DNA from: a virus
IMG/VR virus record: IMGVR_UViG_3300025071_000031
Span: 1-29,598 of that record
DNA: 29,598 nucleotides
Reading direction: 5' to 3' (one strand)
In this document: piece by piece, positions 1 through 29,598 of the stretch
Position numbering within the stretch: position 1 is the stretch's first letter
Layout: every line of letters starts with the position of its first letter
Notes under the pieces: generated by a model
What the model was told of the DNA's origin: nothing
Database searches by the model: none
What the model saw: only the letters and a program-made list of their open reading frames with translations
Position numbers and translations under genes: made by a program

Positions 1-907
1 TGTAAGTTGCTACGATGAAACCTGCTTCAATACCGGGAACACCCTTCACACCGGAGTATGTAGGGGTGATTCTCTTAGAGTCCATGAATCGCTGTTGGGA
101 TTGCAACAGTTGTTGAGTGCGCATAAGCGTATCATATCCTGTTAGCATAACCTTTGGATTACCACCGCGAGTCCAAATCTGTTGGAATAGACCATCAAGT
201 TGGTTTAGTGAAAGGTTTCGGTTAACGGATGTTCCGCTACCGTCGCCACCAATGTCACATTCTGCGCTGTGGAAAGCCTTGTCACCATTACGAGTAATTG
301 AATACATGTCGTGGTCAGCAAGAGTATCAACTGAACCGGACGCGATAGTGAGTTTAGAAGGGTCACTTGTCACTCGGTCAAGAGATTCAAAGTCGTTTCC
401 GGCGGCAGTAGTAACATCTTGAAGCATCATTTTGTTAACATGCTCAGCGTGGTGCTTACCCATCTCTTCTTTCAAGACTTGACGAACATCGCCCATTCCG
501 TCATCCTTGTCGGATAGGAACATGCTTACTTCGGACAAGTCAAAAGTGTGCGCGATGGTCTTAGGCTTAGCCGCGACATGTAGGAACTCCGGTCGTGAGG
601 TGTCCGGTAGCGTAGCGTTCTCAGCAAGACCGCCACCCTTCTCAAAGGATGCGCGTTCTGTGAGAATACGCCATCCGCTTCTTTCCCACGGTTTCTTCGG
701 TAGGATTGAAAACGCGTTAAACTCTTGGTTCAACTGTGACCAAACCTTGCGTCCGTAAACTGCTTGGTATGTTCCGGCGGTGGTTGACATCATCGGGCTG
801 TCTGCCTTCAAAATGTCTCCGCTTGAATAGGTATATCCTGTTTGTGCCGCGCCACCGTAGTAGTAGCGTTCCATGTCTTGAACTGTTCTTACATAATTTC
901 GTGCCAT
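1..907 (-). CDS. Major capsid protein, HK97 fold (3' part missing at window edge)
   Basis: This is my own translation of the minus strand from the ATG at 907; the frame stays open for 302 codons to the window edge, so the C-terminus is missing. The product begins MARNYVRTVQDMERYYYGG. It has the look of an HK97-type capsid protein: an early YQAVYGRKVW / NAFSILPKKPW segment, a GWRILTERASFEKGGG stretch typical of the N-arm to E-loop region, a P-domain helix (KEEMGKHHAEHVNKMM) and a later GGNPKVMLTGYDTL strand-helix. It would build the icosahedral shell. It lies 5 nt after the protease stop, with GGGAGTGA as ribosome site, in the standard portal-protease-capsid order. Whether it carries a cleaved N-terminal delta domain is not obvious, because the fold-like region starts early. 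The family call rests on pattern and context, not on a search. Confidence 0.88.
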   Translation of the reverse strand, partial: MARNYVRTVQDMERYYYGGAAQTGYTYSSGDILKADSPMMSTTAGTYQAVYGRKVWSQLNQEFNAFSILPKKPWERSGWRILTERASFEKGGGLAENATLPDTSRPEFLHVAAKPKTIAHTFDLSEVSMFLSDKDDGMGDVRQVLKEEMGKHHAEHVNKMMLQDVTTAAGNDFESLDRVTSDPSKLTIASGSVDTLADHDMYSITRNGDKAFHSAECDIGGDGSGTSVNRNLSLNQLDGLFQQIWTRGGNPKVMLTGYDTLMRTQQLLQSQQRFMDSKRITPTYSGVKGVPGIEAGFIVATY

Positions 908-912
908 ATATT

Positions 913-1785
913 TCACTCCCCCTTCAATGCTTTGTCAGCAAGTCGGTGAACATCGTCCCACGACATATTTGCCATCTCCGTAGTATCGGGAACAGAAATG
1001 GAGGTTGATGAAACGCTCTTTGTGAGTGTTTCTCCTCCGGTGTGTGCAACATTACTGATGCGTTGGTCAAGTGCAACAACAGCCTTTTGAAGTTCAAGAA
1101 GAGGTCGGCGGGAATCAAAGTTAGCCTTTGCCTTTTCGTTCTTCGCGATGGTCTGTTCTGCTGAAAGTCGGTCTGCAAAGTAGTTACCAAGAGAGCCTTT
1201 GAATTGTTGTTCAGTTGCCGCGGCCTTGTAAACTTCGTAAGCCGATTCAATATCGGATTGAGAAACATTGCCCGCGTTGAGGTAGTCTTGTTTAATGACA
1301 TTGGTGTTTCCTTTTCCGCCTTGTCCAAAGTCCATCTTTGGTCGCTTTGAGGATTCGCCTTCACCTGCGCCTTCAAGAGAACCTTGTCCGCGGTGGTCGT
1401 AGCCGGATTGCCCCGGTCCATATCCTTTGTTCACACTATCAAAATGAGCGCGAGCGTCAGCAATGTCATGTCCTTGACTCTTTGCTGTTGACTCAAGCCA
1501 TTGCAGATAGTCAGTTGTTATCATATCTTCTGCTTTTGCTGTCATGTCATCACCATACATCATATCCTCGTCTTCGTCGTCGTCGTCTTCGTCGTCGTCA
1601 AGTCCGGGGAGTTTAGGTTCTTTCTTCTCCTTCTTAGGAGGGAAAGGTGCGTCGTCTCCGCCATCGTCGCCCATCGGGAAACCTTTGTCGGAGTCTTCGT
1701 CTTTCTTTTTATCATCTTCTTCGTCGTCCAATTTCTTGGAGAGTCTTTCTAATACGGTTTGTAGTTCGCTCATTGGGTCAGTCAT
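913..1785 (-). CDS. Nested in-frame scaffold protein (internal start in protease gene)
   Basis: Codon 176 of the protease gene is an ATG preceded by AGGTGAT with three bases between (AGGTGAT-ACT-ATG). This matches the ribosome sites at the independent genes starting at 8725, 12876 and 22999, and is much better than the site in front of the full-length protease. It falls exactly at the border between the protease fold and the acidic tail. Translation from here would give a 290-aa acidic helical protein beginning MTDPMSELQTVLERL. Phage lambda C/Nu3 shows the same arrangement, where the scaffold is the in-frame C-terminal part of the protease gene. The site is directly visible; its use is inferred. 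Confidence 0.55.
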   Translation of the reverse strand: MTDPMSELQTVLERLSKKLDDEEDDKKKDEDSDKGFPMGDDGGDDAPFPPKKEKKEPKLPGLDDDEDDDDEDEDMMYGDDMTAKAEDMITTDYLQWLESTAKSQGHDIADARAHFDSVNKGYGPGQSGYDHRGQGSLEGAGEGESSKRPKMDFGQGGKGNTNVIKQDYLNAGNVSQSDIESAYEVYKAAATEQQFKGSLGNYFADRLSAEQTIAKNEKAKANFDSRRPLLELQKAVVALDQRISNVAHTGGETLTKSVSSTSISVPDTTEMANMSWDDVHRLADKALKGE

Positions 1786-2310
1786 AGTATCACCTGTGTC
1801 TTCCTTGAGAATACGAAACTGTGCTTCGGGGTTAATACCCTTCTCACAAATCGTGACCTCATGGAGTTCCATACGACGGATTTCACGGTAGTCACCGCGA
1901 GTCGCGTCGCTTTTGTTGACGCGCTCAAAGGCTTGACCGCCTATTGAGAACGACCGTAGGTTGCCCTTACGGATTTCGGATGCAACTTCGCGGGCCTTTT
2001 CAATGTCTCCGCGTAGTTGAATGACAACAAACATGCCGGTATCATCCACTTCGGATTTCCATACGCGACCGTTACTATCAGTGTAAGAAGGGATTACCGT
2101 TCCTACTTGAATGTTAGAGTGTGCAAGTTGCACATTGCGGAATGCTTCTGCTTTCATAAATCCGCCAAATGCGTCTTTCAATGCTCCGCGTGTGATAAGG
2201 TCGCCTTGCTTGTCAACCATCTCAACAGATGCATACCCTGCAACAACCAAATCATCTCCGAACCCCTTGAGGACAAGGGGAGTGGATTGAGCAGGTGCAA
2301 GAATTGCCAT
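913..2310 (-). CDS. Prohead protease fused to acidic scaffold-like domain
   Basis: Predicted 465 aa. Residues 1-170 match the HK97/S78 prohead maturation protease family: VAGYASVEMVDKQGDLI opens the fold, His64 lies in QLAHSNIQVG, Ser120/Ser122 in LRSFSIGG, and the acidic third position is near Glu148-Glu151 in MELHEVTI. The enzyme would cleave capsid and scaffold proteins in the prohead. Residues 176-465 are a long tail unlike the protease: a very acidic low-complexity stretch (about residues 195-255), then helical segments ending in MSWDDVHRLADKALKGE. That composition fits a scaffold (delta-like) domain. I chose the ATG at 2310; the frame extends one codon upstream to a TTG, and no convincing ribosome site is visible for either. 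A strong internal start at 1785 could make the tail alone. The capsid gene follows 5 nt later. Confidence 0.85.
   Translation of the reverse strand: MAILAPAQSTPLVLKGFGDDLVVAGYASVEMVDKQGDLITRGALKDAFGGFMKAEAFRNVQLAHSNIQVGTVIPSYTDSNGRVWKSEVDDTGMFVVIQLRGDIEKAREVASEIRKGNLRSFSIGGQAFERVNKSDATRGDYREIRRMELHEVTICEKGINPEAQFRILKEDTGDTMTDPMSELQTVLERLSKKLDDEEDDKKKDEDSDKGFPMGDDGGDDAPFPPKKEKKEPKLPGLDDDEDDDDEDEDMMYGDDMTAKAEDMITTDYLQWLESTAKSQGHDIADARAHFDSVNKGYGPGQSGYDHRGQGSLEGAGEGESSKRPKMDFGQGGKGNTNVIKQDYLNAGNVSQSDIESAYEVYKAAATEQQFKGSLGNYFADRLSAEQTIAKNEKAKANFDSRRPLLELQKAVVALDQRISNVAHTGGETLTKSVSSTSISVPDTTEMANMSWDDVHRLADKALKGE
1568..1599. repeat. Trinucleotide run encoding Asp/Glu tract
   Basis: Runs of TCG/TCT-type triplets on the plus strand (GAC/GAA/GAT on the coding strand) encode the Asp/Glu tract of the scaffold-like domain. 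The plus-strand Ser-rich frame here is only the shadow of this tract. Such a tract can expand or contract by slippage. Confidence 0.6.
1789..1795 (-). promoter_or_regulatory. Internal Shine-Dalgarno site for nested scaffold
   Basis: AGGTGAT on the minus strand, three bases before the in-frame ATG at 1785, inside the protease gene. It is complementary to the AUCACCU of the 16S rRNA 3' end and matches the sites used by neighbouring genes. Confidence 0.55.
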
Positions 2311-2337
2311 CAAAAATCGTCATGTTCTATTCGTATA

Positions 2338-5300
2338 TTAAACGCGCGGTTTAGTTATAGTGATGTTCCCGCGATTGTCCGTGGTGGCTTCTTCGCCTTC
2401 AGTGGTGCGAATACGCGTTGGTTTTTTGTTTGTTTCCGCGGGCTTTTCTTTGTATTCGCGAGAGGCAGGGTCAAAGTCCGGCAATGTGTCATCATTCATG
2501 TTGGTAGTTGGCCCTCGCGGGGACTCAACATCCGCATCTCCGTAATCAAGACCAAGACCTTGAACACCTGTGCTTGTAATTTTTTCTTTACTCAAGCGTT
2601 CAAGACTACGCTCAAGAACTTGGAGTCCGCGTTTGATAATCTCCTCTTCTTCGGATAATATCTGTTTGCGCTTCTTTGTGTGTCCCGCGGGAACTTCGGG
2701 TTCAACTTCTTTCTCCTCTTCGCGCTTGAGCAACACTGTCGCGATTGGTTGCCAATACGGGCGAACATCTTCGGCTAATTTGAACAGGTAATCATCGTCC
2801 CCCCACATACTCTTCTCGGCTTCAATCATCCACCCCTGCTCTTCTCTATTGATTTTGTAAATCACTTCATCGTGAAGTGACGGGAATATGATATGAAGTC
2901 GCCCTTTCTTGAGTCGCGCTTTATGAGGCACTTTTGAATCGTTCGTCATAATTGATAGCGACTCAACGCTATCTGCGGCTTGAGGGTGAGAGTCACGGTC
3001 AATACGCGCGGAACGGATTGTAAACACAGGGTATTCGGATTGATTGCATGAAACGCCTGTGCAGAATACACTTACATATTCTCCCTTGTCAAATCCTCTT
3101 GGTCCTTTCGCGCTTCCAATATCCATGTAATGTTGTCCTTCATACTCAACGGAGCGCGCACCATAGTGTTCGGGGTGCATAATTGGACCAACACCAATGC
3201 GATAAGTCGCACCTTTGCGGTCAAGAATGATTACATCAACTCTCTTCTCCTTACTCAAAAGAACCCACTTAGGGTGTCGTATCTCCCCTCTCATGTAAGT
3301 TGTTGATGCGTCGCGCAACAAAATATCACTTGGGGATTCGTCGCGCAAAAGTGAAACTGCTTCTGCTAAACCTGTATCGTCTGCGCGTTTGGTGTTGTAG
3401 GGTTCGGGCATTTTGATATGCACCGAAGATTCAAAGTGTGCGCGTAAATGCCTCACTCGGTCTTTAGCGGGCATATTATGTGTTTTCTCATCTGCCGCCT
3501 CAAGCAAGTCAATGAAATACAACATGTCATCGCCGATGACAGCGTGAACAACGAAGTCTTTGTCGTTCACTTTACCCATCTCTTCTTGCATGTCGCTACT
3601 CAACTCAACCAATTTCATGTCCGCGTTGTATGCTTTAGTTTTCTTACCCTTCTTTTGAAGAATAATTGGTTCGCCTTTGGGTATGTGCGAGGCTATCCAA
3701 TCACCGCTGAATCCGCGTAAGTGTTTCAAATCACTAAGGTCAAAGATTCTATGCATTGATTTAATCGGTGTAGGTCGTCCATCATCTTTGATAATCAAAG
3801 TGTCATCTGTTACTCTATCCGCACACATTTGAAAATACTCGTTAGAACTGTTTGCCCCCGCGTCTAATGCGGCTTGACCCGATTGCATAGTGGTATTCAC
3901 ACCATCACCTGCTCGCTCTTGCTCTTGACTGACTTGTAACGGTTGCGTTTCATGAGGTTGATAAATTGTGTCATCATAATTATTCAGCCCTTCGTGCGCG
4001 TCTTTCAGCAAATCGGGGGAGACATACCCAACACTTGAAGGTGGTGCTTGGTGAAAGTGTGGTCTTTGAGGGTTGTCAAGCATCATCTGTGTTGGGTGTT
4101 GGTCGCGAATGGTGAACTGCGGATTGATGATTGTCCCCATTTGGTCTTTACTTGCTAAACAATCAGCGATTGCAGGGAGGGGTGCGCGTGAAGGATGACG
4201 ACCGCCAACCTCCACTTGAGTCAGTTCAGCAGGTGCGGCCTTGCTTTCACCTTTGATTTCAGTTGGTTTGGCTAAGTCCTCAAACACTTCGGCTAAACGC
4301 TTTGGTAATTTCTTAAACTTTCTTTGACCAAACGGCATAAAAGCGAATTGGTTGCGAAGATTTACACAATAAGGTGTGCCTTGCGTTTGTGATTTAATGT
4401 CTTTCAGCACAGCGTCAAGAGCCTTAATTTCAGTCTTTTGAGAGATATTTGCATTCTTTTTCATACCAACCTCGTATTGATGAACTCCCTCTCCACCACT
4501 CATCAACGGTGTGAATATCTTCTCACCGTCTTCGTTAAGCGAGGTGTGCATAGCGTCATGATTATGGTCGCCCATTCTGTTATCCACCATTTTATGCTCA
4601 ACAGGTTCACCACTTTCATTACCATGAGGTATGTATCGCGCGTATAATCTATTCATCAACTCTTCATTGCTGTTTTTGTCCTTACTAACGGCTTGCACTC
4701 TCTCCAATACCGCTTGCGCGATTTTGTATTCCTTTGTCAATTCGGGGTCTTGATTCCCAATCTTACCGTTGATAAACGCTTCAAAGACATGACCTCCTGT
4801 TGGTTTCTCACCTTTGGATTCTAACGGCGCGAAATGTTCGCGAGCATTAGGTAAGTCATCTGTTCCTATTTTGAATGTCATGCGCGGAACTGTATATTCA
4901 ACAATCTTTTTAATCGCGTCTTCGTCAACATAATCGCTTACTTTGATAGTTATAGGACCGCCCTCATCTCCCAATCCGCTAAGATGACCATGTTCAAGAA
5001 ACTCTCTCCTCTCTTCGGGACTTTTGTTTCTCATGAAGCGTTCGCTGATGTTGTAAGCAACTGTGAGATTTGCATGTGTTTGGTTGTTTTCGCGCGCTGT
5101 CCCTGTCTTAAATGCGCTCGGTCGTATGTTCTCAATAAGTGGTTTGAATATGGTTTGATAGGCCAACTTTGTCGCGTTGTGCGTTTGTGTTGCGTGTTCC
5201 GTCTCATAATGCTGTTGCTCATGAGGAGTAGGAGTTGGATTGTGACCTATCGTTTTGTGCGAATAAGCCATTTGTTCGTGTAAACGCGAGGTGAGAATGT

Positions 5301-8300
5301 CAGCAATGTCCTCTTTACCGGCTTTCATCGCTTCACTTATCTGTTCTCTTAAGTTCCTACACGCGTAATCGTAATGTTGTTGTGGAGAAGGGCCGGTTTT
5401 GAAACTTTTAATCTCCTCATCGTCGTTGATGTATCGCCCATCAAGTTGCCCTTGACGCGCATCATAAAGAATCTCTTGTTGTAGTTTGGGCGACAATTTG
5501 GCAAATGGTGTTCCTTTCGCGTCAACATACCTAAGTTGAATGAACTCGCTTAATTCTCCGAACCCCGCGAGAGATTTGTCAGTCAACGGTTTCAATCTCA
5601 TTATACCACCTTTTGCGGTGTGAGCATCCATGCTTTTTTGGTATTGGTCGCTATCATAAACACCTATGCCGTAGTCTTCATACGGTTCATTCCCCAACAG
5701 TTCTGCCGCCATATCCGCATCGGGTCGCCCTAACACATCCTTATGGTCTTTAGATGTGAGAATTGATTTAGGGTTAGCCAATCTTTGTTTCCACTCTTCA
5801 TGGTGTTTCTCATCATGGACGGATGGATGGTGATGCGCGTTAGCGAAGAGAAGATTCTTTCTCGCTAACATTTCAAGCGTGTGTTGAACTGTCATATTGG
5901 TATTGTATGTGTGATGATAGGGTGTGCGCTTTTTGGTCGCATTTTCCAATTCTGTTAACATACCTTGACTATGAAATGTTCTCCCATCATTTTTCTTTTT
6001 AATCGCATTAAGCCTATGCGCTCTATCTCGCGACATAGGATGGTAACTGTAATTGTTGTCGGTTCGTCCTGTCTTTACTTCTGCCGATAGAATACCACCC
6101 ATAGGGAAGTCGGTGTTGTAAGGCAATAACGCGCCGAGAAAGTTCAAACCCGGAGCCGCGGGATAGAGAGTAGGAGAACCTTTGAGTGAGTGTTCCCACT
6201 CATCCTGTGATTCGTCTTCATCCAATATCTCTTCATCTTTATCTCCTTCGGCAAGGAATCTCAACTTCATCGCTTCGCGAGTTGATTGAGTTTGAGATTT
6301 ACCGTCGGGTCGGCTTGGGTATGCTTCAAGTTCAACGCGTTCACCGTTAGCCAACTTCTCTTCTGCCTGTTTGATAGCGTCTTGAGTTTCGCGATTTTCA
6401 TTCATCCATCGTCTCAAAGACTTGTTGTGTTCAATCCTTTCACCGCGGCTCATGTCATCCGTGTATTGCCAACTTTGAGTAAGAGGCTTGTTACCTTTCC
6501 AATTACCCCTCTTATCGGGAATGCCGCGAGTAGGGAATATCTTTGGGTCAACTTGTTTAGCGAAGTCGGTGAATAACACACCGGGCAAACCTTCGTGCAA
6601 CGCTTCTGCTATTTCATAAAACTCGCGCGAAAGAGAACCCATGCCGTTATTCAACCCATGAACCATTTCATCAAGACATGTGGCTTCATATTCCGGCTCT
6701 TGTGAAGGGTCAAAGTTGTGGTCTGTTAGTTTGTGAGTGTGATTGTAATGCTCAAGCATTCCGAAGTTCTCGGCTGTTGAGATTTGATGATTAACGCTCG
6801 CGACGATGTAATGTTGAGCGTCTTCTGCTTCTTCGGCTGTGATGATACCTAACTTCACCGCGTTGTCAAAGTCGGGTATCTTGGGGAGTTTACCTTTGTG
6901 TTTGATTTTCATTACATCGCGAACTTGCTGTGCCTTTGTTGCCCCAATAGCCTCTTCAACCATCTCGTCGTATCTGTCTTGGTCAATATCAATACCTTGA
7001 TTTTTCCAAGCAGAATCAACACTTTCGGGGTCTTTGATGAAGTTTGCGCGCCTTGCTTCAATGCTGTTTGGCCCTGCAACTCTCTCCCAACCATCCTCAC
7101 CAAAGTTCAGTTTCTTGAATGGGTCTTGAAACCCCTCCATTTTCATGTCGCTCGGTCGCCCCGCAACTGTCCCCGCATGAGAACTGCCGGGGAAACCGGA
7201 GTAAAGTTGGTGTAATGCTTTAGAGAAAAGTTTGAGATTGCGCGTCATGAATCCGCGTGGATGTTGCGCGCCCGGACCAAACGCTTCGTCAAGTAATGAG
7301 TCGTCAAAACTTTTAGTGGCGGTGTATGTCTTGTTACCTTTCTCGTCTGTCTTGCTTTGAGAACCGCCACCATTAGCGACCCACTCCATCACTTTTATTT
7401 GGTCGTCGTAATCAAGCATGGTTATCCCAAGCATGACAGGTAGTAAGCCCATCTCGCGATGACGGTTTTGCTTCACCATATGGCTTATGTCCCCGTAAAC
7501 GCATTGACCTGTATCTTGGTCATATAGGTCGCTTTCAAACAACTGCTCATGCGGAATGCCCTTCATCTCATACATTTTATGATGAAAGAACTCGCGCTCT
7601 CCCGGCGTTTCGGCTTGAGGAAAATGCTCTTTGTGATTCGTGCAATATCGCTTATACGCGGCCTCTCTCATCTTTTCATGTGTGACTCCCTCATCGCCCC
7701 ACGGACCGAGCATGAGGTTGCTCTTCGCAGACTTAGGCATGTGCTTTTCAGCCTCTAACATCTTCTCATCCAATTTACCTCTCCTACGATGATATAGGTC
7801 TTGAATCAAATTGAACGCTAATGGGGTGTTGGAGTGGAGATTCGCGTTAGCGGTTGGTCGGTTGAAGAAACCAAGTTTGGCGAGGTGATGCGCTTTATGC
7901 TTAGAAGGAACACCTTGCATCCTATCTTCGCTACTGTTCCCCCTCCAACGGAACATACGCTGATAGCATTTCTTCTTCACAGCAGGGTCTTCGCTTGATA
8001 GTTGACCATAAAGAACATCTTTCATTTTACGAGGGTGGCGAATACCCATTCCTGTTTGCGCACCGGCATGCCCTTCACGAAACATGCGTCGCCATGCCCT
8101 ATCGGACACGGTTCTGCGCTCACCATACGCGTCTTCATTTGCGGTAGCCGCGCCAATATCACCGTCTTGAGCAGTTCTTTCAATCTCAACCGCTTTACGC
8201 AAGTAGTCCTCTATCAAAGGGATGTATGGGGGAGACGCGTAACCGTAGTTCTCTAAATTAGTGTTGCTGAATAGAACATCAGCCGCTTCGTTCAAAGCGT

Positions 8301-8379
8301 CTCCTTTGTGAATGTATCTCGCTTGAATGTATTCATCCATCACGCGTTGGTGATAACGAAGTGCATTCTCTTTAGACAC
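2338..8379 (-). CDS. Giant virion-type protein with degenerate DNA-ligase-like C-terminal domain
   Basis: About 2013 aa, with no recognisable domain over most of its length. It is hydrophilic, rich in His, Gln, Asn and charged residues, with no membrane segments or signal peptide. The N-terminus carries KGDALNEAADVLF, which is repeated in the protein encoded at 14988-16763. At roughly residues 1550-1800 I see an ATP-dependent DNA ligase-like pattern: a motif I-like strand (EPIILQKKGKKTKAYN), a motif III-like DFVVHAVIGDDMLYFIDLL, a motif IV-V-like stretch (SDILLRDASTTYMRGE followed by HPKWVLLSKEKRVDVIILD), and an OB-fold-like DKGEYVSVFCTGVSC...FTIRSARIDRD. The KxDG lysine-aspartate pair and the motif IV EG are not conserved, so it is probably not an active ligase. 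A charged helix and disordered tail follow. The frame runs to a GTG at 8391, but GAGGTGGT sits 7 nt before the GTG at 8379, which I take as the start. It may be a virion-internal or injected protein, which I infer from size and context only. Confidence 0.85.
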   Translation of the reverse strand: MSKENALRYHQRVMDEYIQARYIHKGDALNEAADVLFSNTNLENYGYASPPYIPLIEDYLRKAVEIERTAQDGDIGAATANEDAYGERRTVSDRAWRRMFREGHAGAQTGMGIRHPRKMKDVLYGQLSSEDPAVKKKCYQRMFRWRGNSSEDRMQGVPSKHKAHHLAKLGFFNRPTANANLHSNTPLAFNLIQDLYHRRRGKLDEKMLEAEKHMPKSAKSNLMLGPWGDEGVTHEKMREAAYKRYCTNHKEHFPQAETPGEREFFHHKMYEMKGIPHEQLFESDLYDQDTGQCVYGDISHMVKQNRHREMGLLPVMLGITMLDYDDQIKVMEWVANGGGSQSKTDEKGNKTYTATKSFDDSLLDEAFGPGAQHPRGFMTRNLKLFSKALHQLYSGFPGSSHAGTVAGRPSDMKMEGFQDPFKKLNFGEDGWERVAGPNSIEARRANFIKDPESVDSAWKNQGIDIDQDRYDEMVEEAIGATKAQQVRDVMKIKHKGKLPKIPDFDNAVKLGIITAEEAEDAQHYIVASVNHQISTAENFGMLEHYNHTHKLTDHNFDPSQEPEYEATCLDEMVHGLNNGMGSLSREFYEIAEALHEGLPGVLFTDFAKQVDPKIFPTRGIPDKRGNWKGNKPLTQSWQYTDDMSRGERIEHNKSLRRWMNENRETQDAIKQAEEKLANGERVELEAYPSRPDGKSQTQSTREAMKLRFLAEGDKDEEILDEDESQDEWEHSLKGSPTLYPAAPGLNFLGALLPYNTDFPMGGILSAEVKTGRTDNNYSYHPMSRDRAHRLNAIKKKNDGRTFHSQGMLTELENATKKRTPYHHTYNTNMTVQHTLEMLARKNLLFANAHHHPSVHDEKHHEEWKQRLANPKSILTSKDHKDVLGRPDADMAAELLGNEPYEDYGIGVYDSDQYQKSMDAHTAKGGIMRLKPLTDKSLAGFGELSEFIQLRYVDAKGTPFAKLSPKLQQEILYDARQGQLDGRYINDDEEIKSFKTGPSPQQHYDYACRNLREQISEAMKAGKEDIADILTSRLHEQMAYSHKTIGHNPTPTPHEQQHYETEHATQTHNATKLAYQTIFKPLIENIRPSAFKTGTARENNQTHANLTVAYNISERFMRNKSPEERREFLEHGHLSGLGDEGGPITIKVSDYVDEDAIKKIVEYTVPRMTFKIGTDDLPNAREHFAPLESKGEKPTGGHVFEAFINGKIGNQDPELTKEYKIAQAVLERVQAVSKDKNSNEELMNRLYARYIPHGNESGEPVEHKMVDNRMGDHNHDAMHTSLNEDGEKIFTPLMSGGEGVHQYEVGMKKNANISQKTEIKALDAVLKDIKSQTQGTPYCVNLRNQFAFMPFGQRKFKKLPKRLAEVFEDLAKPTEIKGESKAAPAELTQVEVGGRHPSRAPLPAIADCLASKDQMGTIINPQFTIRDQHPTQMMLDNPQRPHFHQAPPSSVGYVSPDLLKDAHEGLNNYDDTIYQPHETQPLQVSQEQERAGDGVNTTMQSGQAALDAGANSSNEYFQMCADRVTDDTLIIKDDGRPTPIKSMHRIFDLSDLKHLRGFSGDWIASHIPKGEPIILQKKGKKTKAYNADMKLVELSSDMQEEMGKVNDKDFVVHAVIGDDMLYFIDLLEAADEKTHNMPAKDRVRHLRAHFESSVHIKMPEPYNTKRADDTGLAEAVSLLRDESPSDILLRDASTTYMRGEIRHPKWVLLSKEKRVDVIILDRKGATYRIGVGPIMHPEHYGARSVEYEGQHYMDIGSAKGPRGFDKGEYVSVFCTGVSCNQSEYPVFTIRSARIDRDSHPQAADSVESLSIMTNDSKVPHKARLKKGRLHIIFPSLHDEVIYKINREEQGWMIEAEKSMWGDDDYLFKLAEDVRPYWQPIATVLLKREEEKEVEPEVPAGHTKKRKQILSEEEEIIKRGLQVLERSLERLSKEKITSTGVQGLGLDYGDADVESPRGPTTNMNDDTLPDFDPASREYKEKPAETNKKPTRIRTTEGEEATTDNRGNITITKPRV

Positions 8380-8386
8380 ACAATCC

Positions 8387-8394
8387 ACCACCTC
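8387..8394 (-). promoter_or_regulatory. Ribosome site deciding the start of the giant protein
   Basis: GAGGTGGT on the minus strand, overlapping the TGA of the upstream gene and 7 nt before the GTG at 8379. The two earlier in-frame GTGs (8391, 8388) lie inside this site and cannot use it. Confidence 0.6.
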
Positions 8395-9631: not shown

Positions 9632-11473
9632 TCAAAATCCGCTTTCTTTGTTCTTACTCGTAGGGTCTTTCGCGGCTTCAACAGCGTCAAGTGCTTGTTC
9701 GGTCACAGTCTTCTCCGAACCTCTTTGATTCTTCTTAGATGTTGGCGCGCCACTCAAATGAGTTTCGGAACTGATAGGTGCAGGGCCGTTATCGCGTTGC
9801 CCTGTTCCTTCACCAAGACCGGCCATCGCTCCCTTCTCCATCATCATAATTTGACCGCCGCCGCCTTGAGGCGGAGGTCCGCCTTGAGGTGGTAGCCCCC
9901 CGCCACCTTGAGGCATCATTCCCCCGCCCGGAGGTAAGCCTTGTGGGGGCGGCATAGGCATACCGCCACCCGGCATTGGAGGTGGTTGTTGACCACCCGG
10001 AGGCGGTGCGCCGCCACCCGGAGGTTGTTGTTGCTGTTGTTGTTGAGGGTCGGGCTTTGAGTAAGTGAATCGTATGTCGCTACCTGCACCTTCTGTGAGT
10101 TCTGCTTCAAATCCAAGTTGTATCATACGCTGTGCTATGTTTACTTCTTGCTCATCGCGTCGTAGCCTTGTCACATCATCTTCTTCTTCGTTAGGATAAA
10201 GTGTAAGTTCCCACTCATCAACACCCATCTCTTTGAGAAGGCGCGGGAATAGATTTTTCGCGTAAACTTTCTGTCCGTATTCAACGGCGCGATTAGTGAC
10301 AAGGATTTGCATTCCTTCATTGTTGAGTCCGCCGGATTTACCCGCGTCCATCATAAAGATGCTTGACACCCCATAGAATGCGGCAATGCGAGTCCTTACT
10401 TCATCGCGTATTTGTGAATACTGCATCTCATCAAGGCTATCCATGAAGCGAACAAACTCAACCTTACCACGACCCGATGCTGATTCAATACCAACCTTCG
10501 GAATGTAGTGAGGGTCGCGTTCCATCTTCTCTTCTGCTCCTTTCCAAAACGATGCTGTGGATTGAATGTTGTCTGTTGTAATTGCGAGAATACCGCGAGG
10601 GATTCTGCGCTTTTGATATGCGAGGTAAATGTAATTATCCATCGCGGTGAGAGTTTGTGCCTGTCGCCACATCGTAGCAACAGGGCTTCGGCCATACAGT
10701 TTAGACGGGTTGTATTTGCTTGTGTGGAGTATTTCTCCCTCAATGTAATACTGTGTCTTACCGCTACCCGCAGTATTGATGTAATGAACATCTTGGAGAG
10801 GTAATGAGCAAACATCACACTTGTGATGGTCGCCATTGTGAGGGTATGTTTTGTCTCGGTGAACAGGGCAGATGAGATACCTACCGCCGCGTGAACCGCG
10901 CTTATCGGCAACAATTCTCATGAATGTTGGGTCGCCGCGCATAACTTCTTTAATTCGGAAAAAGGCAATCTCGCCGCTGTCGGGGTCAATGAAATACTCT
11001 TTAATGAGGATGAGGAACGCGTCATCAACAATATCTAAATCCCATTCAACTTCGCGCATAACATCCATGAACGATTGGTCCATGCTGTTTCTTTGGTCTA
11101 ACAGCCAACGCGGGTAAAGTATTTGGTCAACATCGGGAGATTCAAACTCCTTCATTCCACATAAATGACATTCATCAACTGTGTCGTGTTGGTATTCTTC
11201 TTTGCAGTTCGTGCATTTTTTATGAAACTTTTTCTGCCAATAGTGGCCGCGCCTAAACACTTCTTGACAAAGTGTATTGATGGTGGTTCTCAAAACAACA
11301 GACTCTTGAACTGTCGCGTAAAGAGCAGGGATGCTCACACCTTGAACAAGAACAGGTTCTTGAATACCCGCTTTCCAAAGCGGCATGATAGGTTCGGGAG
11401 TGGTTCGTCGTCGGAATGGTTTTGATAGTGTTGACAAGAATCTGCCGACTACACCTTGCTCGTCTTTAGCCAT
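9632..11473 (-). CDS. Portal protein with two zinc-ribbon insertions and Gln/Pro/Gly-rich tail
   Basis: 613 aa. The dodecameric portal forms the DNA-entry vertex. The fold is indicated by the order of segments seen in phage portals: an N-terminal strand-helix (about 40-75), a DAFLILIKEYF wing strand (about 151-161), the EILHTSKYNPSKLYGRSPVATM stretch (about 248-268), which is typical of portals, the stem helix region, and a C-terminal helix (VTNRAVEYGQKVYAKNLFP, 392-410). Two unusual insertions have zinc-binding spacing: C87-x2-C90...C102-x2-C105, and C202-x2-H205...C219-x2-C222. Residues about 476-545 are a long Gln, then Pro/Gly/Met-rich, disordered stretch. The start ATG at 11473 overlaps the upstream TAA (TAATG) and has GAGGTTGAT before it. 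Confidence 0.9.
   Translation of the reverse strand: MAKDEQGVVGRFLSTLSKPFRRRTTPEPIMPLWKAGIQEPVLVQGVSIPALYATVQESVVLRTTINTLCQEVFRRGHYWQKKFHKKCTNCKEEYQHDTVDECHLCGMKEFESPDVDQILYPRWLLDQRNSMDQSFMDVMREVEWDLDIVDDAFLILIKEYFIDPDSGEIAFFRIKEVMRGDPTFMRIVADKRGSRGGRYLICPVHRDKTYPHNGDHHKCDVCSLPLQDVHYINTAGSGKTQYYIEGEILHTSKYNPSKLYGRSPVATMWRQAQTLTAMDNYIYLAYQKRRIPRGILAITTDNIQSTASFWKGAEEKMERDPHYIPKVGIESASGRGKVEFVRFMDSLDEMQYSQIRDEVRTRIAAFYGVSSIFMMDAGKSGGLNNEGMQILVTNRAVEYGQKVYAKNLFPRLLKEMGVDEWELTLYPNEEEDDVTRLRRDEQEVNIAQRMIQLGFEAELTEGAGSDIRFTYSKPDPQQQQQQQPPGGGAPPPGGQQPPPMPGGGMPMPPPQGLPPGGGMMPQGGGGLPPQGGPPPQGGGGQIMMMEKGAMAGLGEGTGQRDNGPAPISSETHLSGAPTSKKNQRGSEKTVTEQALDAVEAAKDPTSKNKESGF
9839..10048. repeat. Low-complexity coding repeat in portal tail
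   Basis: GTT/CTT-type triplets on the plus strand give seven Gln codons, followed by imperfect repeats of Pro-Pro-Gly-Gly-Gly/Met units. The tract keeps the portal frame throughout, so it is part of the gene rather than an insertion that breaks it. Confidence 0.65.
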
Positions 11474-12876
11474 TAAATCAACCTCTCTATACGGTGAATG
11501 TCGTCCACAAGGCGGATGACTTCATTATCCCGTTGTCCCCATGCACGAACTTCATGCTCTTCAACCTTCCACTCTCGGAGTAACTTATCGCGTTCTTCGG
11601 GAACATCCTTCCAATTTTCCCATTTGACGACGCGGTATAGTTCATCTCTTCGGGACTTGACAAGGTTTGTTTTAGAACCCCTCAAGTCAAGCAACTGCAA
11701 TACTGCGCTCGCTTGAGCCTTCTTCATTTGCAAATGCGGTTGAATACCTTTGAGTAACTTTCTCAAGTCATCCGCGCCATAGAATTGAAGGCGATGTTGT
11801 GTGCGCTTACTGTTTTTATGTATTTTCAAATCAGTCTGTAACACACCACAGCCGAGAGCCTTGTGCAAGTTTTCACAGTGGATTTTACCTCGCCCACCCG
11901 TCGCTACAAAACCTGCTCTTGGTTCTAATCTCTTGGTGATTGTAATGTAACCATCCGCGTCAAGAAAGCCCGCGGCGTAAGCCCATACATCTTTGACAAT
12001 AACAAAGTCGTCACGAACAACGCCGTAGTTTGTGCCGATTCTTTCAATATCATATTCAACGCCATGCGTCTTTAGCAACGAAGCCATCTTGTTGATTGTT
12101 AGATTTTTCGGTGAGCCTATTGAGTTGTAAATCTCATTTGATGATAGCGGCCCTCTTTCTGTTAGAACATCGCTTGTGCGCGTAAGCCATATCGCTTCTT
12201 GTTTCTTGATGTTGTCAATTGAATGTAATGTTTGCCGCCATTGCTTCTTAGCATCCTTCCTCATTTGGTTTGCGCCTAACCACATCTCTAATTGGTTCGC
12301 GTCAAAGTCCCCTTCAACTTGAGCCAATTTTGAAATAACATCATTGGCCTGTTCCCACGATGCACAGGCGCGTCTTAAAGCGAACTCGCGAGAAGAACCA
12401 TGTTTCCTCAATGCGAGTAAATCCCTGTCGGAAACACCAAGCCCGCGTATAGAAGACAGGTGTTCGTCAGCCCATGATAACGACTTGAGTGTTGATTCAA
12501 CTTCTTCGCGCTTAGCAACTCGTATCGCTTTGATAGCAAGGTCAATGTCGTCGCGCATGTCTTTTCTTTCACGGCGAGCCATTCTCAAATCCTTCACCAT
12601 AGTTTCAGCGTCTTTACCAAACACTGATTGAAACCAACCGTTTTGCGGCATTGCGCTTTTGAGTTGTTGCGTTGCGGCTTGAACTAACTCTTGCTTCTTC
12701 TTCTCCTCTTCAATCTCGTTCGGTTTTGGGGGTTCAGTTCCACCCGCTAATGCGCCTTGTCCTTGCGCTACGGGTGCATCCCCGTCGCCAATCTTCGCTC
12801 CTTGTATTGAGTTCTTCAATAAAGAATCAAAGACCCTTTCAAACGCTTCATCTTTGAGAATAGAACCCGACCACAT
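11473..12876 (-). CDS. Head-block protein fused to winged helix and single-motif LAGLIDADG domain
   Basis: 467 aa from the ATG at 12876, which has GGTGAT four bases upstream; a GTG at 12885 sits where that site would be lost. Residues 1-230 are charged and helical with no recognised family. Residues about 235-285 look like a winged helix (RGPLSSNEIYNSIGSPKN then INKMASLLKTHGVEYDI). Residues 300-312 are a LAGLIDADG motif (AAGFLDADGYITI) retaining the catalytic-type Asp, followed by about 100 residues with the usual alternating strands and helices. One motif means it would act as a dimer. There are no intein splice signatures and the domain is C-terminal, so this is a fusion, not an intein. It may be a homing endonuclease or only a DNA-binding protein reusing the fold. 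It lies between the Cys-rich genes and the portal. Confidence 0.85.
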   Translation of the reverse strand: MWSGSILKDEAFERVFDSLLKNSIQGAKIGDGDAPVAQGQGALAGGTEPPKPNEIEEEKKKQELVQAATQQLKSAMPQNGWFQSVFGKDAETMVKDLRMARRERKDMRDDIDLAIKAIRVAKREEVESTLKSLSWADEHLSSIRGLGVSDRDLLALRKHGSSREFALRRACASWEQANDVISKLAQVEGDFDANQLEMWLGANQMRKDAKKQWRQTLHSIDNIKKQEAIWLTRTSDVLTERGPLSSNEIYNSIGSPKNLTINKMASLLKTHGVEYDIERIGTNYGVVRDDFVIVKDVWAYAAGFLDADGYITITKRLEPRAGFVATGGRGKIHCENLHKALGCGVLQTDLKIHKNSKRTQHRLQFYGADDLRKLLKGIQPHLQMKKAQASAVLQLLDLRGSKTNLVKSRRDELYRVVKWENWKDVPEERDKLLREWKVEEHEVRAWGQRDNEVIRLVDDIHRIERLI

Positions 12877-12881
12877 GGTAA

Positions 12882-13052
12882 TCACCGTGTTTCGTATCGC
12901 GCGACCATTTTCTTTAGTGAGTTACCGTTCTGTTTATCCAACAGCGCGTAACAAGGACATTTAGGTGCAGACTTAGAACATTCCATTTTGTCTTTCATCA
13001 TGCACACACAAGGGGTTTTCTTAGTTGCGCCGCAACAGCATTTATCTTTCAT
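12882..13052 (-). CDS. 56-aa Cys-rich protein
   Basis: Short gene found by reading the gap between two larger genes. The product starts MKDKCCCGATKKTPCVCMM and has eight cysteines in about 30 residues (CCC, CVC, C, CPC), followed by a basic tail. It could bind one or two zinc ions. Its ATG overlaps the upstream TGA (ATGA) and its TGA lies just before the next gene's ribosome site, so it is packed like its neighbours. It forms a set with the two next upstream genes, both short, basic and Cys-rich at the N-terminus. Function unknown. Confidence 0.72.
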   Translation of the reverse strand: MKDKCCCGATKKTPCVCMMKDKMECSKSAPKCPCYALLDKQNGNSLKKMVARYETR

Positions 13053-13249: not shown

Positions 13250-13581
13250 CAGTTCCACCTCTTGAGTGATGCGCCTTTTGGAGTGAGTTTACCGCCTTTA
13301 CTTGTAGCACCTTTCATACCTCCCATCCGCGCGCAAAATGACTTACGACGCTTCGCTGATTTACTACCGGGTTTGAGTGAACTTGGTTTCTTGGTGACAG
13401 GGGGTTTGAGGTTCGCACCTGTTTTGCGTTTAGCGGCGGCACGACCTTTAGCATTCAATCCACCCTTCTTACTGTGCTTGTTTGGATTGTAACCGTGAAA
13501 CGGTTTTGACTTCTTCTTTGCTTTCAGCATCATAAATGCTATCTCGTCGGGTGTGCAACAGTCGCAATAATCTTCGTTCAA
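13246..13581 (-). CDS. 111-aa basic protein with RKSFCARM...RWNC motif
   Basis: TTG start at 13581, overlapping the terminase TGA as TTGA with a GGGGTTGAT site upstream; the next Met is 16 codons in and would remove the Cys-rich start. Sequence landmarks: YCDCCTPDEIAF at the N-terminus, KKGGLNAKGRAAAKRKTG, NLKPPVTKK, then RKSFCARMGGMKG and a terminal RWNC. The last part matches a small domain I know from marine phages and prasinovirus-type genomes (DUF6321-like, from memory), function unknown. It is very basic (Lys/Arg near 30 percent) and probably binds DNA or RNA. It lies directly after TerL. Confidence 0.82.
   Translation of the reverse strand: MNEDYCDCCTPDEIAFMMLKAKKKSKPFHGYNPNKHSKKGGLNAKGRAAAKRKTGANLKPPVTKKPSSLKPGSKSAKRRKSFCARMGGMKGATSKGGKLTPKGASLKRWNC
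13255..13261 (-). promoter_or_regulatory. Ribosome site for TTG-started 66-aa gene
   Basis: GAGGTGG on the minus strand, inside the end of the upstream gene, five to six bases before the TTG at 13249. It decides TTG over the GTG at 13258. Confidence 0.5.
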
Positions 13582-14978
13582 TCAATCAACCCCGCCATCA
13601 TATCATCAATGTCAACTATGCGCTCGCGGAACTCGGTTGTCCCCCAATGCGCTAAGGCAAGCGCGATAGCAAAGTCATCGTGGCGACCGATGCTATCCAA
13701 CTTGCCCTTCTTTGACATGCCGAACATAAGTAGTTCCCGTTCTAACTCGCTCATAAGGGTTCGGGAGTTCTCATCGCCCCACGGCAACCTCAATTGCTCT
13801 TTCTCAAAACGCATAACTAATCCCATAAGAAGAGATTCTCGGCGTTGCCGAGTTGAAATGAATGTCTTAATTGGTAAGTCTGTGTCCGCGCGTAATTCAG
13901 TAGCGAACACACGCTGAAAATTGTTCGCTTCAAGTTCTATTACATCGGGCGCGAACTTCGCGTTGAGTTTTTGAATCTCCATAATCTGTGTTCGGAAATC
14001 CATATTCTTTCTGCGAACTACATGAACCAACTCAAGCAATTCGGGATTGGTTGAAGGACGACGAAGCACCACCATAACAGTGTAGTCAGCCGACCTGTCC
14101 GACGAAATAGCCGGGTCCCATCCGACGAAGTATTGGTCATCGGGGTCGCCATCTGCGCGATTGATAATTCGCAAATCGCTATCTTTCGCGGCTTGAAGAA
14201 CTAACGAAGGGAATAAACTGCTCATGTCATCCATCGGCTCACATAGATATTCGCGAGCAAACGCAATAGCGGGCATGTCATTTCTGCGCGCATCAAGAGA
14301 ATCTAAGTCCCAACGCTCCGGCCAAAGCGCGACACCTTGCGTATTGATAGCAGGGTATGTCTCAACAAGGTAGCCTTCGCGCTGTTCCAACTCCGTGTAA
14401 AGGTCAGTTGGTGTAAACGGCGTTCCAACAATCATCAGTTTAGATGTGTGGTGAAGTGTAGGAACAAGAACCTCATAGAACCAACTCGCGACTCTTTGAA
14501 GTTCGGTATCTGTTGTCCCCCACAGAATATCGTCGCATAGAATGAGGTCGGGGTGAATACCACGAATAGCACCACCAACAGACTTCGCGCTGATGTTTGA
14601 GCCATTACTGAAACCAAAGAATGTCTTTGACCAAGAATCGGCTTTCTTCATGCGCGCCATGAAAGGTATTCCATCTATGAGGTCATTGAGTGTCCTCATG
14701 TGATGTATGGATTGGTGCAGACTGTGACTGATAAGAACCGCTTTGCATTTAGGATTGAACGCGACTTTCCAAAGCAAGTAGCCGAGGAACAGCGTTGATT
14801 TACCGTGGTCACGCGCCGCTTTCACACAGTATCGTCGTTGTGATTCAAGATTATTATACCATTTTTCGTGGTGGTGAGATAACTGAAAACCAAGAATGTC
14901 TTCAAAGAAGAACTTGAAGTCGCGCTTAGCAACTTCGTAGTCAATCTCTTCAACAGTTTCAAGGCTTAAGCCCTCCAT
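13578..14978 (-). CDS. terL: Terminase large subunit (packaging ATPase/nuclease)
   Basis: 466 aa, a usual length for the family. It pumps and cuts viral DNA into proheads at the portal. The ATPase domain shows a Walker A-type AARDHGKST (54-62, Lys60), Walker B LILCDD (145-150), and a coupling motif VGTPF (184-188). The RNase H-like nuclease domain shows GWDPA (Asp288), IELEAN (Glu350) and GRHDDFAIALALA (Asp434/435), the three acidic positions expected for two-metal cleavage. The ATG at 14978 is preceded by AGGTGAT at eight bases. It starts 9 nt after the upstream gene and its stop overlaps the next gene as TTGA. The nearest relatives should be terminases of archaeal and other tailed viruses. 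Confidence 0.95.
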   Translation of the reverse strand: MEGLSLETVEEIDYEVAKRDFKFFFEDILGFQLSHHHEKWYNNLESQRRYCVKAARDHGKSTLFLGYLLWKVAFNPKCKAVLISHSLHQSIHHMRTLNDLIDGIPFMARMKKADSWSKTFFGFSNGSNISAKSVGGAIRGIHPDLILCDDILWGTTDTELQRVASWFYEVLVPTLHHTSKLMIVGTPFTPTDLYTELEQREGYLVETYPAINTQGVALWPERWDLDSLDARRNDMPAIAFAREYLCEPMDDMSSLFPSLVLQAAKDSDLRIINRADGDPDDQYFVGWDPAISSDRSADYTVMVVLRRPSTNPELLELVHVVRRKNMDFRTQIMEIQKLNAKFAPDVIELEANNFQRVFATELRADTDLPIKTFISTRQRRESLLMGLVMRFEKEQLRLPWGDENSRTLMSELERELLMFGMSKKGKLDSIGRHDDFAIALALAHWGTTEFRERIVDIDDMMAGLID

Positions 14979-23003: not shown

Positions 23004-23726
23004 TCACCATTTTAACATTTCAAGTAATGTTTTTTCAACATTCCACCCTATATTTGTCGCCATCATAGAAACGCGGCAAGGGATGCCCGCTTTTTGTAGT
23101 CTGCGCATCGCAGGTCTATGAACATCAAAGACTTTGTGTTCGCGAAGTCGGTTAGATTGCCATAGCATGTTTGCATTCTCGTCCCACCATTCATCTGCCT
23201 TGTTTGCGATAATCCACACTTGCTTAGGCGCGTATCTTTTACCTTTCAACCTTGTTGAAAGTTTGCGATACTTCCAACGCTTCTCAATCAAAGCATCAAC
23301 AAGAAACTCCAAACCGCCGACAACATCAATGACTTGAGAGCCATTTCCTGTAATCGCGCGAGTATCAGTCATGAATACGACTATTTCCACCTGCCTATCC
23401 ACCATATCATCAATCCATAGCGACCAAAAACGCTGTTGTCCCCCAATGTCGGACGAATGAACAACTCTCTTCTCACCTTGCCATCGGATTCGCTTTCGCG
23501 TTGCGTTTGGTAGCACATGACCGCCTTTTAGCAACCTCTTAGGGTGCATAGTTCGCTCTTCAACCGCGTCCATTTCACCCGGAGTGCGCATAAATTGGTC
23601 AAGCGTGGTCTTACCGACTAAAGTTGGCCCATACACGCCTATTCGTCGCGGTTTGAGAAAATTATACAATTCTTTACCATAAACAACAGCACCCATAAGC
23701 GCGCTACCTGCTAACGCTACCGCCAT
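23004..23726 (-). CDS. Arf/SR-beta-like small GTPase with N-terminal membrane segment
   Basis: 240 aa. The G-domain motifs are in order: P-loop GPTLVGKTT (33-41); a possible switch I Thr in ERTMHP (around 59); G3 DIGGQ (93-97), the Arf/Sar/SR-beta form with the glutamine used for GTP hydrolysis; a Walker B-like strand VEIVVFMTDT; G4 NKAD (175-178); and a G5-like SMMATN (220-225). Residues 3-17 are hydrophobic (VALAGSALMGAVVYG) and directly precede the G domain, as in SR-beta, suggesting a membrane anchor. It would cycle between GTP and GDP states at a membrane. It sits between two small membrane proteins and a Cys/His protein with 1-6 nt spacing. No regulator or effector family is recognisable nearby. 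A host-derived gene is possible. Confidence 0.87.
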   Translation of the reverse strand: MAVALAGSALMGAVVYGKELYNFLKPRRIGVYGPTLVGKTTLDQFMRTPGEMDAVEERTMHPKRLLKGGHVLPNATRKRIRWQGEKRVVHSSDIGGQQRFWSLWIDDMVDRQVEIVVFMTDTRAITGNGSQVIDVVGGLEFLVDALIEKRWKYRKLSTRLKGKRYAPKQVWIIANKADEWWDENANMLWQSNRLREHKVFDVHRPAMRRLQKAGIPCRVSMMATNIGWNVEKTLLEMLKW

Positions 23727-29594: not shown

Positions 29595-29598
29595 TTGA

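Follow-up and report, generated by a model that had tools for sequence, protein, structure and literature searches.

The window analyzed here, i.e., the complete stretch of 29,598 nucleotides of IMG/VR virus record IMGVR_UViG_3300025071_000031, contains a block of head genes in which a giant open reading frame (ORF) of 2017 amino acids (aa), read from the minus strand and starting with GTG, precedes the genes for an S78 prohead protease and an SU10-type major capsid protein (MCP) (Table 1). Close to its C-terminus, the giant protein carries a homolog of the catalytic core of ATP-dependent DNA ligases, composed of a nucleotidyltransferase (NTase) part and an OB fold, in which the catalytic residues are missing. 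From the order of the genes we infer that the giant protein is a component of the virion. The original prediction for this DNA had described a pseudo-ligase domain at positions 2960-3730, a span that corresponds to residues 1554-1811 and indeed represents this domain, in a gene situated directly before those for head protease and capsid, as is confirmed by the gene order; the protein length of 2013 aa given there has to be corrected to 2017 aa, counted from the GTG start.

When the giant protein of the window was searched as a single sequence against Pfam, PHROGs and the PDB, nothing meaningful was obtained for the ligase domain, so that the case for a ligase is built on the relatives of the family. 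PF01068 (DNA_ligase_A_M) was matched by 25 out of 28 diverse family members (best E 5.4e-8), and archaeal DNA ligases ranked first in the PDB when family profiles were used (E 7.6e-6 and 1.1e-6). Alignment of the family profile with 20 archaeal ligases by hhalign reached a score of 72.7 and a probability of 96%, as compared to 25.1 for the best of 60 column shuffles and 28.6 for the reversed profile, and a second, smaller alignment from the same ligase set gave a probability of 95%. An AlphaFold2 model of the window domain, based on a 41-row alignment, had a mean pLDDT of 83.9 and a pTM of 0.73. Its best 50 PDB matches were all DNA ligases or complexes containing DNA ligases, with 4eq5 at the top (E 9.8e-15, TM-score 0.57 by query length, 356 alignment columns), and the same holds true for the best 50 PDB matches of a model for the relative L076. 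The root mean square deviation is high in many of these structure matches, as expected from differing orientations of the NTase part versus the OB fold. Since family, profile-control and AlphaFold matches agree, the likeness to ligases is not due to chance, and a C-terminal portion of ~300 residues is established as a homolog of the ligase catalytic core. A predicted structure lacking the NTase/OB arrangement would have contradicted the original prediction, but the AlphaFold models do show this arrangement, so that a ligase fold with an inactive catalytic site near the end of the giant protein is borne out. An NTase fold with its motifs in ligase order is followed by an OB fold that is less secure, because the strict profile alignment ends where the OB part begins. 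The region of motif VI is reached solely by a looser hhalign alignment, in which three out of 23 ligases had been trimmed at a wrong KLDG; the strict alignment with its 20 ligases is free of these sequences. The stretch TIRSARIDRD, originally proposed as the end of the OB part, takes the position of motif VI in the looser alignment and lies beyond the end of the strict one.

Within the domain, PIKSM (PIKPM in ligases) is followed by IPKG (KYDG), HAV (motif III, xGE) and FID (motif IIIa) and then by SDILLR (motif IV, EGhhhK), TYMRGE-RHPKW (YxxGxR..W) and VLLS (motif V, LKIK). That motifs III, IV and V follow each other in this way had been recognized correctly before, as had the replacement of Glu-Gly in motif IV by Ser-Asp, which is also found with hhalign. 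On the other hand, the KxDG site had been equated with QKKG, while profile alignments place K-Y-D-G on I-P-K-G and QKKG on the next strand. GFSG was likewise considered as motif I and rejected by profile alignment. The suggested inspection of the active-site Lys across homologs covered 137 unique domains of relatives and never found a Lys at this position, which is taken by Trp in 106, Ile in 11 (as Ile1570 in the window), Phe in ten, Leu in six and Tyr in four cases. At the position of the motif III Glu, Ile, Val, Leu, Met or Thr is always present, that of the motif IV Glu is mixed (Lys in 45, Glu in 25, Asp in 24 and Ser in 11 domains, among others; Ser in the window), the first Lys of motif V is always substituted by a hydrophobic residue (Leu, Val, Ile or Met) and the second one by Arg, Thr, Ser, Gln or Val. 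A complete catalytic site is kept in none of the members. Largely retained are the Gly of motif I (131/137), the Asp of motif III (129/137) and the Arg of motif I (130/137; Pro in the clade of the window), the Lys of motif IV is replaced by Arg in 132 domains, and W1565, D1628, R1705, H1706, K1708 and W1709 are invariant. The positions predicted to serve metal binding and nucleophilic attack are thus gone, and part of the putative basic lining persists. Judged from its sequence, the domain cannot perform self-adenylation by known chemistry, since none of the 137 domains has kept the nucleophilic Lys, the Glu of motif III or the first Lys of motif V, and by these active-site tests it is not a functional ATP-dependent DNA ligase. 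The combination of a ligase fold with catalytic inactivity can be regarded as almost certain.

Table 1. Head-gene block of the window and features of the giant protein, arranged in the direction of transcription.
Feature	Positions	Strand	Residues	Remarks
Terminase large subunit	13578-14978			First gene of the block in transcription order
470-aa gene	11473-12885	-		After terminase, before portal
Portal	9632-11473			Next after the 470-aa gene
Three small genes				110-118 aa; between portal and giant ORF
Giant ORF	2338-8391	-	1-2017	Flanked by the small genes that follow the portal and by S78 protease/MCP
Hypervariable N-terminal part	3862-8391	-	1-1510	Block identities versus L005/L007/L009
Pseudo-ligase NTase + OB domain	2947-3771	-	~1541-1815	
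Pseudo-ligase NTase domain	3232-3771	-	1541-1720	Starts with PIKSM (ligase PIKPM)
Motif I position, IPKG	3673-3684	-	1570-1573	Catalytic Lys replaced by Ile1570; all profile alignments
QKKG	3646-3657	-	1579-1582	On the strand following motif I
Motif III position, FVVHAVI	3535-3555	-	1613-1619	Glu replaced by Val1618
Motif IV position, SDILLR	3313-3330	-	1688-1693	Glu-Gly replaced by Ser-Asp, Lys by Arg1693
RHPKW (invariant), then VLLS	3253-3279	-	1705-1713	Motif V Trp kept, both Lys lost
OB-fold part	2947-3231	-	1721-1815	Ends in motif VI-like stretch TIRSARIDRDSHPQAADSVESL; model strands, Foldseek over 356 columns, looser hhalign
Conserved C-terminal tail	2341-2886	-	1836-2017	KEKxTxTGxxGLGxD...ESPxGPT...LPDxD
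S78 prohead protease	913-2313			After giant ORF in transcription order
SU10-type MCP	2-916			Last gene of the block, after the protease

Conservation along the giant protein changes sharply at residue ~1510. Comparison of the window with relative L005 in blocks of 60 residues yielded 49% identity for residues 1-60, 6-34% over residues 61-1500, 85-90% over residues 1561-1740 and 70-78% from there to the end, while the neighboring portal, protease (conserved 189 residues) and MCP are 95, 97 and 87% identical, respectively. The same contrast is apparent versus L007 and L009, with mostly 4-35% identity in the N-terminal part and ranges of 91-95% for portal, 90-97% for protease and 86-87% for MCP over the three relatives. 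In its rate of evolution the pseudo-ligase matches the three neighboring head proteins, in contrast to the hypervariable remainder of the giant protein, and in a wide set of members the domain together with the following tail forms the most conserved stretch. Among closely related pairs, the NTase part showed dN/dS values of 0.026-0.088 where computable, as compared to 0.11-0.34 for the N-terminal 1510 residues. The domain is under strong purifying selection, such that a ligase NTase and OB fold devoid of catalytic residues is maintained by selection, as befits a pseudo-ligase. Complete giant ORFs comprise 1799-2577 aa, with L048 (543 aa) as the one outlier, and in all members listed 188-224 residues follow C-terminally of the domain. 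A known domain shared among members was not found in the N-terminal ~1500 residues, where one SAP and one PHROG match occurred in single members. In the tails of L011, L012, L018, L023, L025, L032 and L035, an extra Cys-rich knuckle of the type CWCGAxxGxxCxQG is present.

With regard to function, the ligase fold has probably been reused as a non-catalytic docking or binding module; the odds that its partner is DNA rather than protein are slightly less than even. Retained for recognition and docking, the pseudo-ligase would most likely hold the fast-changing N-terminal part of ~1500 residues to a conserved partner in the head. This partner may be a protein of head or portal, or else DNA, packaged or in the form of DNA ends, on which the NTase-OB clamp would close. 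The giant protein would thereby be incorporated into the particle or travel with it. The proposal of a docking end derives from the abrupt rise in conservation at residue ~1510, given that the domain is conserved like portal, protease and MCP and the rest hypervariable, and is supported by the single copy of the module per genome (13 of 13 records) and its fixed place near the C-terminus of the giant ORF. Precedents for non-catalytic ligase folds exist in vaccinia A20 (PMC11142717) and in Lig4 during end synapsis (PMC10858965). Several points weigh against this interpretation: a payload and its dock are not the only possible cause for the neighborhood of a hypervariable and a conserved part, the predicted presence in the virion follows from gene order, dS was saturated in several of the pairs used for dN/dS, and the net charge of the domain is acidic (median -10), which tempers the idea of DNA binding. 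The two-part layout, in which 1500 hypervariable aa are attached to a pseudo-enzyme module under strict conservation, also offers a concrete and testable model for a head-associated viral protein.

More specific roles are conceivable. Along the lines of the DNA binding or nick sensing suggested originally, the pseudo-ligase could be a clamp in the particle that seizes a nick or an end of the genome, leaves it unsealed and shields it or keeps it in place during packaging or ejection, a role that is possible, though on the unlikely side. DNA is held by ligase NTase-OB modules, Lig4 supports end synapsis even in a catalytically inactive form (PMC10858965), and the motif I Arg, the Lys-to-Arg exchange in motif IV and the invariant R-H-P-K stretch would fit such a clamp, whereas the acidic charge of the domain, the Pro in place of the motif I Arg in the clade of the window and the failure to recognize the ligase-type DNA-binding domain PF04675 upstream of the domain do not. 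The acidic charge would rather suit a pure protein-protein scaffold, in which the ligase fold offers a rigid surface for portal, protease-scaffold or capsid protein, a view to which we assign a similarly modest chance. It is consistent with the common evolutionary pace of the domain, portal, protease and MCP and with the inactive ligase domain of vaccinia A20 that works inside a protein complex (PMC11142717), but several invariant basic positions on the active-site face appear to be more than a scaffold would need. A reader of nucleotides or 5'-ends resembling snurportin is improbable. The cap-binding profile was indeed matched by 21 out of 28 members (best E 1.1e-6), and the invariant W1565 and W1709 are reminiscent of W107 and W276 used by snurportin (PMC3278928). 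Nevertheless, the ligase profile scores better, a bulky residue occupies the former Lys site, and the shared features are those possible in any dead ligase-fold protein. Trp residues at both places are common in true ligases and need not mean cap binding, and a cap is not known from archaea. A still-working nucleotidyltransferase with a shifted nucleophile, e.g., the Lys that occurs one residue ahead of the motif I position (SKWYDG) in 77 of the 137 domains, would agree with the finding of no other ligase in the searched genomes but is exceedingly improbable, because this Lys is not conserved, with Ser, Ala, Ile, His, Thr and others at its position elsewhere, the window included, and because no member retains the Glu of motif III or the first Lys of motif V.

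A non-catalytic docking or binding module thus remains our preferred interpretation and can be compared with known systems. Archaeal ATP-dependent DNA ligases, e.g., that of Thermococcus sibiricus (4eq5; PF01068), constitute the top sequence, profile and fold match and exhibit the same NTase order from PIKPM to the Trp of motif V plus an OB fold. Unlike these enzymes, the viral domain is devoid of the catalytic Lys, the Glu of motifs III and IV and the Lys of motif V, is short of ~30 residues between motifs III and IIIa, has no recognized N-terminal DNA-binding domain and forms part of a 2000-aa protein. By type, it joins the dead ligase-fold domains of vaccinia A20 and snurportin, differing from them in family, host domain and context. 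The A20 middle domain, an inactive ligase with NTase and OB parts, is by its published description likewise a viral pseudo-ligase with a structural role, but A20 serves a poxvirus of eukaryotes as processivity factor of the polymerase, while the domain studied here belongs to a head-module protein of tailed archaeal viruses (PMC11142717). The m3G-cap-binding domain of snurportin-1 (PF21974) is also a dead guanylyltransferase/ligase fold, in this case from a eukaryotic RNA import factor that binds the trimethyl-G cap with two Trp residues (PMC3278928). The Druskaviridae HCTV-5 and HVTV-1 have a similar gene order of terminase, portal and capsid in their head-gene block, and their portals are 30-32% identical to that of the window; a pseudo-ligase match was found neither in the head-gene region of HCTV-5 nor in vir335. 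In the open-licence literature, we found no description of an inactive ligase in a head protein of a tailed virus.

Scans of IMG/VR for the domain gave 9 and then 178, 309 and 221 matching places. Identity to the window, among the matches listed in the 178-place scan, ranged from 35 to 45% and reached 77-84% in the near clade. No copies, either cellular or proviral, were present in bacterial or archaeal genomes in a scan of a genome collection, and GenBank phages gave no match. The best fold match in a viral library, BFVD entry A0A516LT18 (827 aa; E 1.5e-24, 18% identity), outscores every named ligase and is possibly a relative in another virus. In addition to its relationship with Druskaviridae, the portal is weakly similar to viruses of methanogens. 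The longest records of relatives comprise 80-118 kb, and a family B DNA polymerase (PolB) is encoded in eight out of 11 relatives' records searched. The 107,632-bp record of relative G003 bears a 75-bp direct terminal repeat and therefore is probably a complete genome; it also encodes a Cpn60/TCP-1 chaperonin, an SNF2-type helicase, an S78 protease and an SU10-type MCP. A single ORF of 6359 aa occupies positions 11527-30606 of G003 (L101-L102). PolB, chaperonin, HK97-type head genes and a Druskaviridae-like portal are found in relatives such as G003, the window itself being a 29.6-kb fragment. As compared with the published make-up, and by descriptions alone, this gene content resembles that of magroviruses (PMC10768690, PMC12999244), for which reason we infer a host among the Poseidoniales. 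Magroviruses infect some of the most abundant archaea of the surface ocean and, according to published descriptions, depend little on host factors for their replication, a view that rests partly on a reported DNA ligase (PMC10768690, PMC10160649).

This ligase deserves attention. By gene content, the Magrovirales appear to be the same type of virus, and their published 'ATP-dependent DNA ligase' is treated as a replication enzyme (PMC10768690, PMC12999244, PMC10160649): virus profiles list it among replication genes (PMC10768690, PMC12999244), and a survey in which Pfam, searched with hmmsearch at 1e-5, was one of several databases used to annotate magroviruses reported that nearly every genome encodes a DNA ligase (PMC10160649). 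Among the relatives, 34 records (18 + 16, up to 118 kb, G003 included) were searched; all PF01068 matches at E <= 0.1 were located inside the giant ORF, and the dead domain was above the curated Pfam ligase cut-off in 14 of these records. The same search detected true ligases in control genomes and no other ATP-dependent ligase in the 34 records, most of which may be fragments and in which a very divergent ligase could escape. An NAD-type ligase adenylation domain was found in none of nine records and an RNA-ligase-family domain in none of 19; a scan of viral contigs for true archaeal-type ligases gave one match with patterns too narrow to be informative. The dead domain can be mistaken for a working DNA ligase, and some of the published magrovirus calls may refer to it. 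Since it is the only ATP-dependent ligase-like sequence in the 34 records, the ligase claim for magroviruses should be re-checked genome by genome. It appears doubtful, albeit conceivable, that the 'ATP-dependent DNA ligase' of most magroviruses is in many cases this dead domain, that the host ligase is used instead and that the pseudo-ligase is a conserved anchor for the genome end or the head that loads a hypervariable payload of ~1500 residues into the particle.

Other genes of the window also stand out. The 470-aa gene of the head block encodes a C-terminal part similar to homing endonucleases (phrog_5046, E 9.2e-11). A second giant ORF of at least 1652 aa (24636-29597, minus strand) is cut by the contig end at the far end of the window. 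A 240-aa protein encoded at positions 23004-23726 on the minus strand contains motifs resembling those of small GTPases (GPTLVGKT, DIGGQ and NKAD), with weak matches only to Arf (Pfam, E 0.13) and Rab-like 5/IFT22 (PDB, E 0.24); a small GTPase-like protein, if real, would be unusual in a tailed virus.
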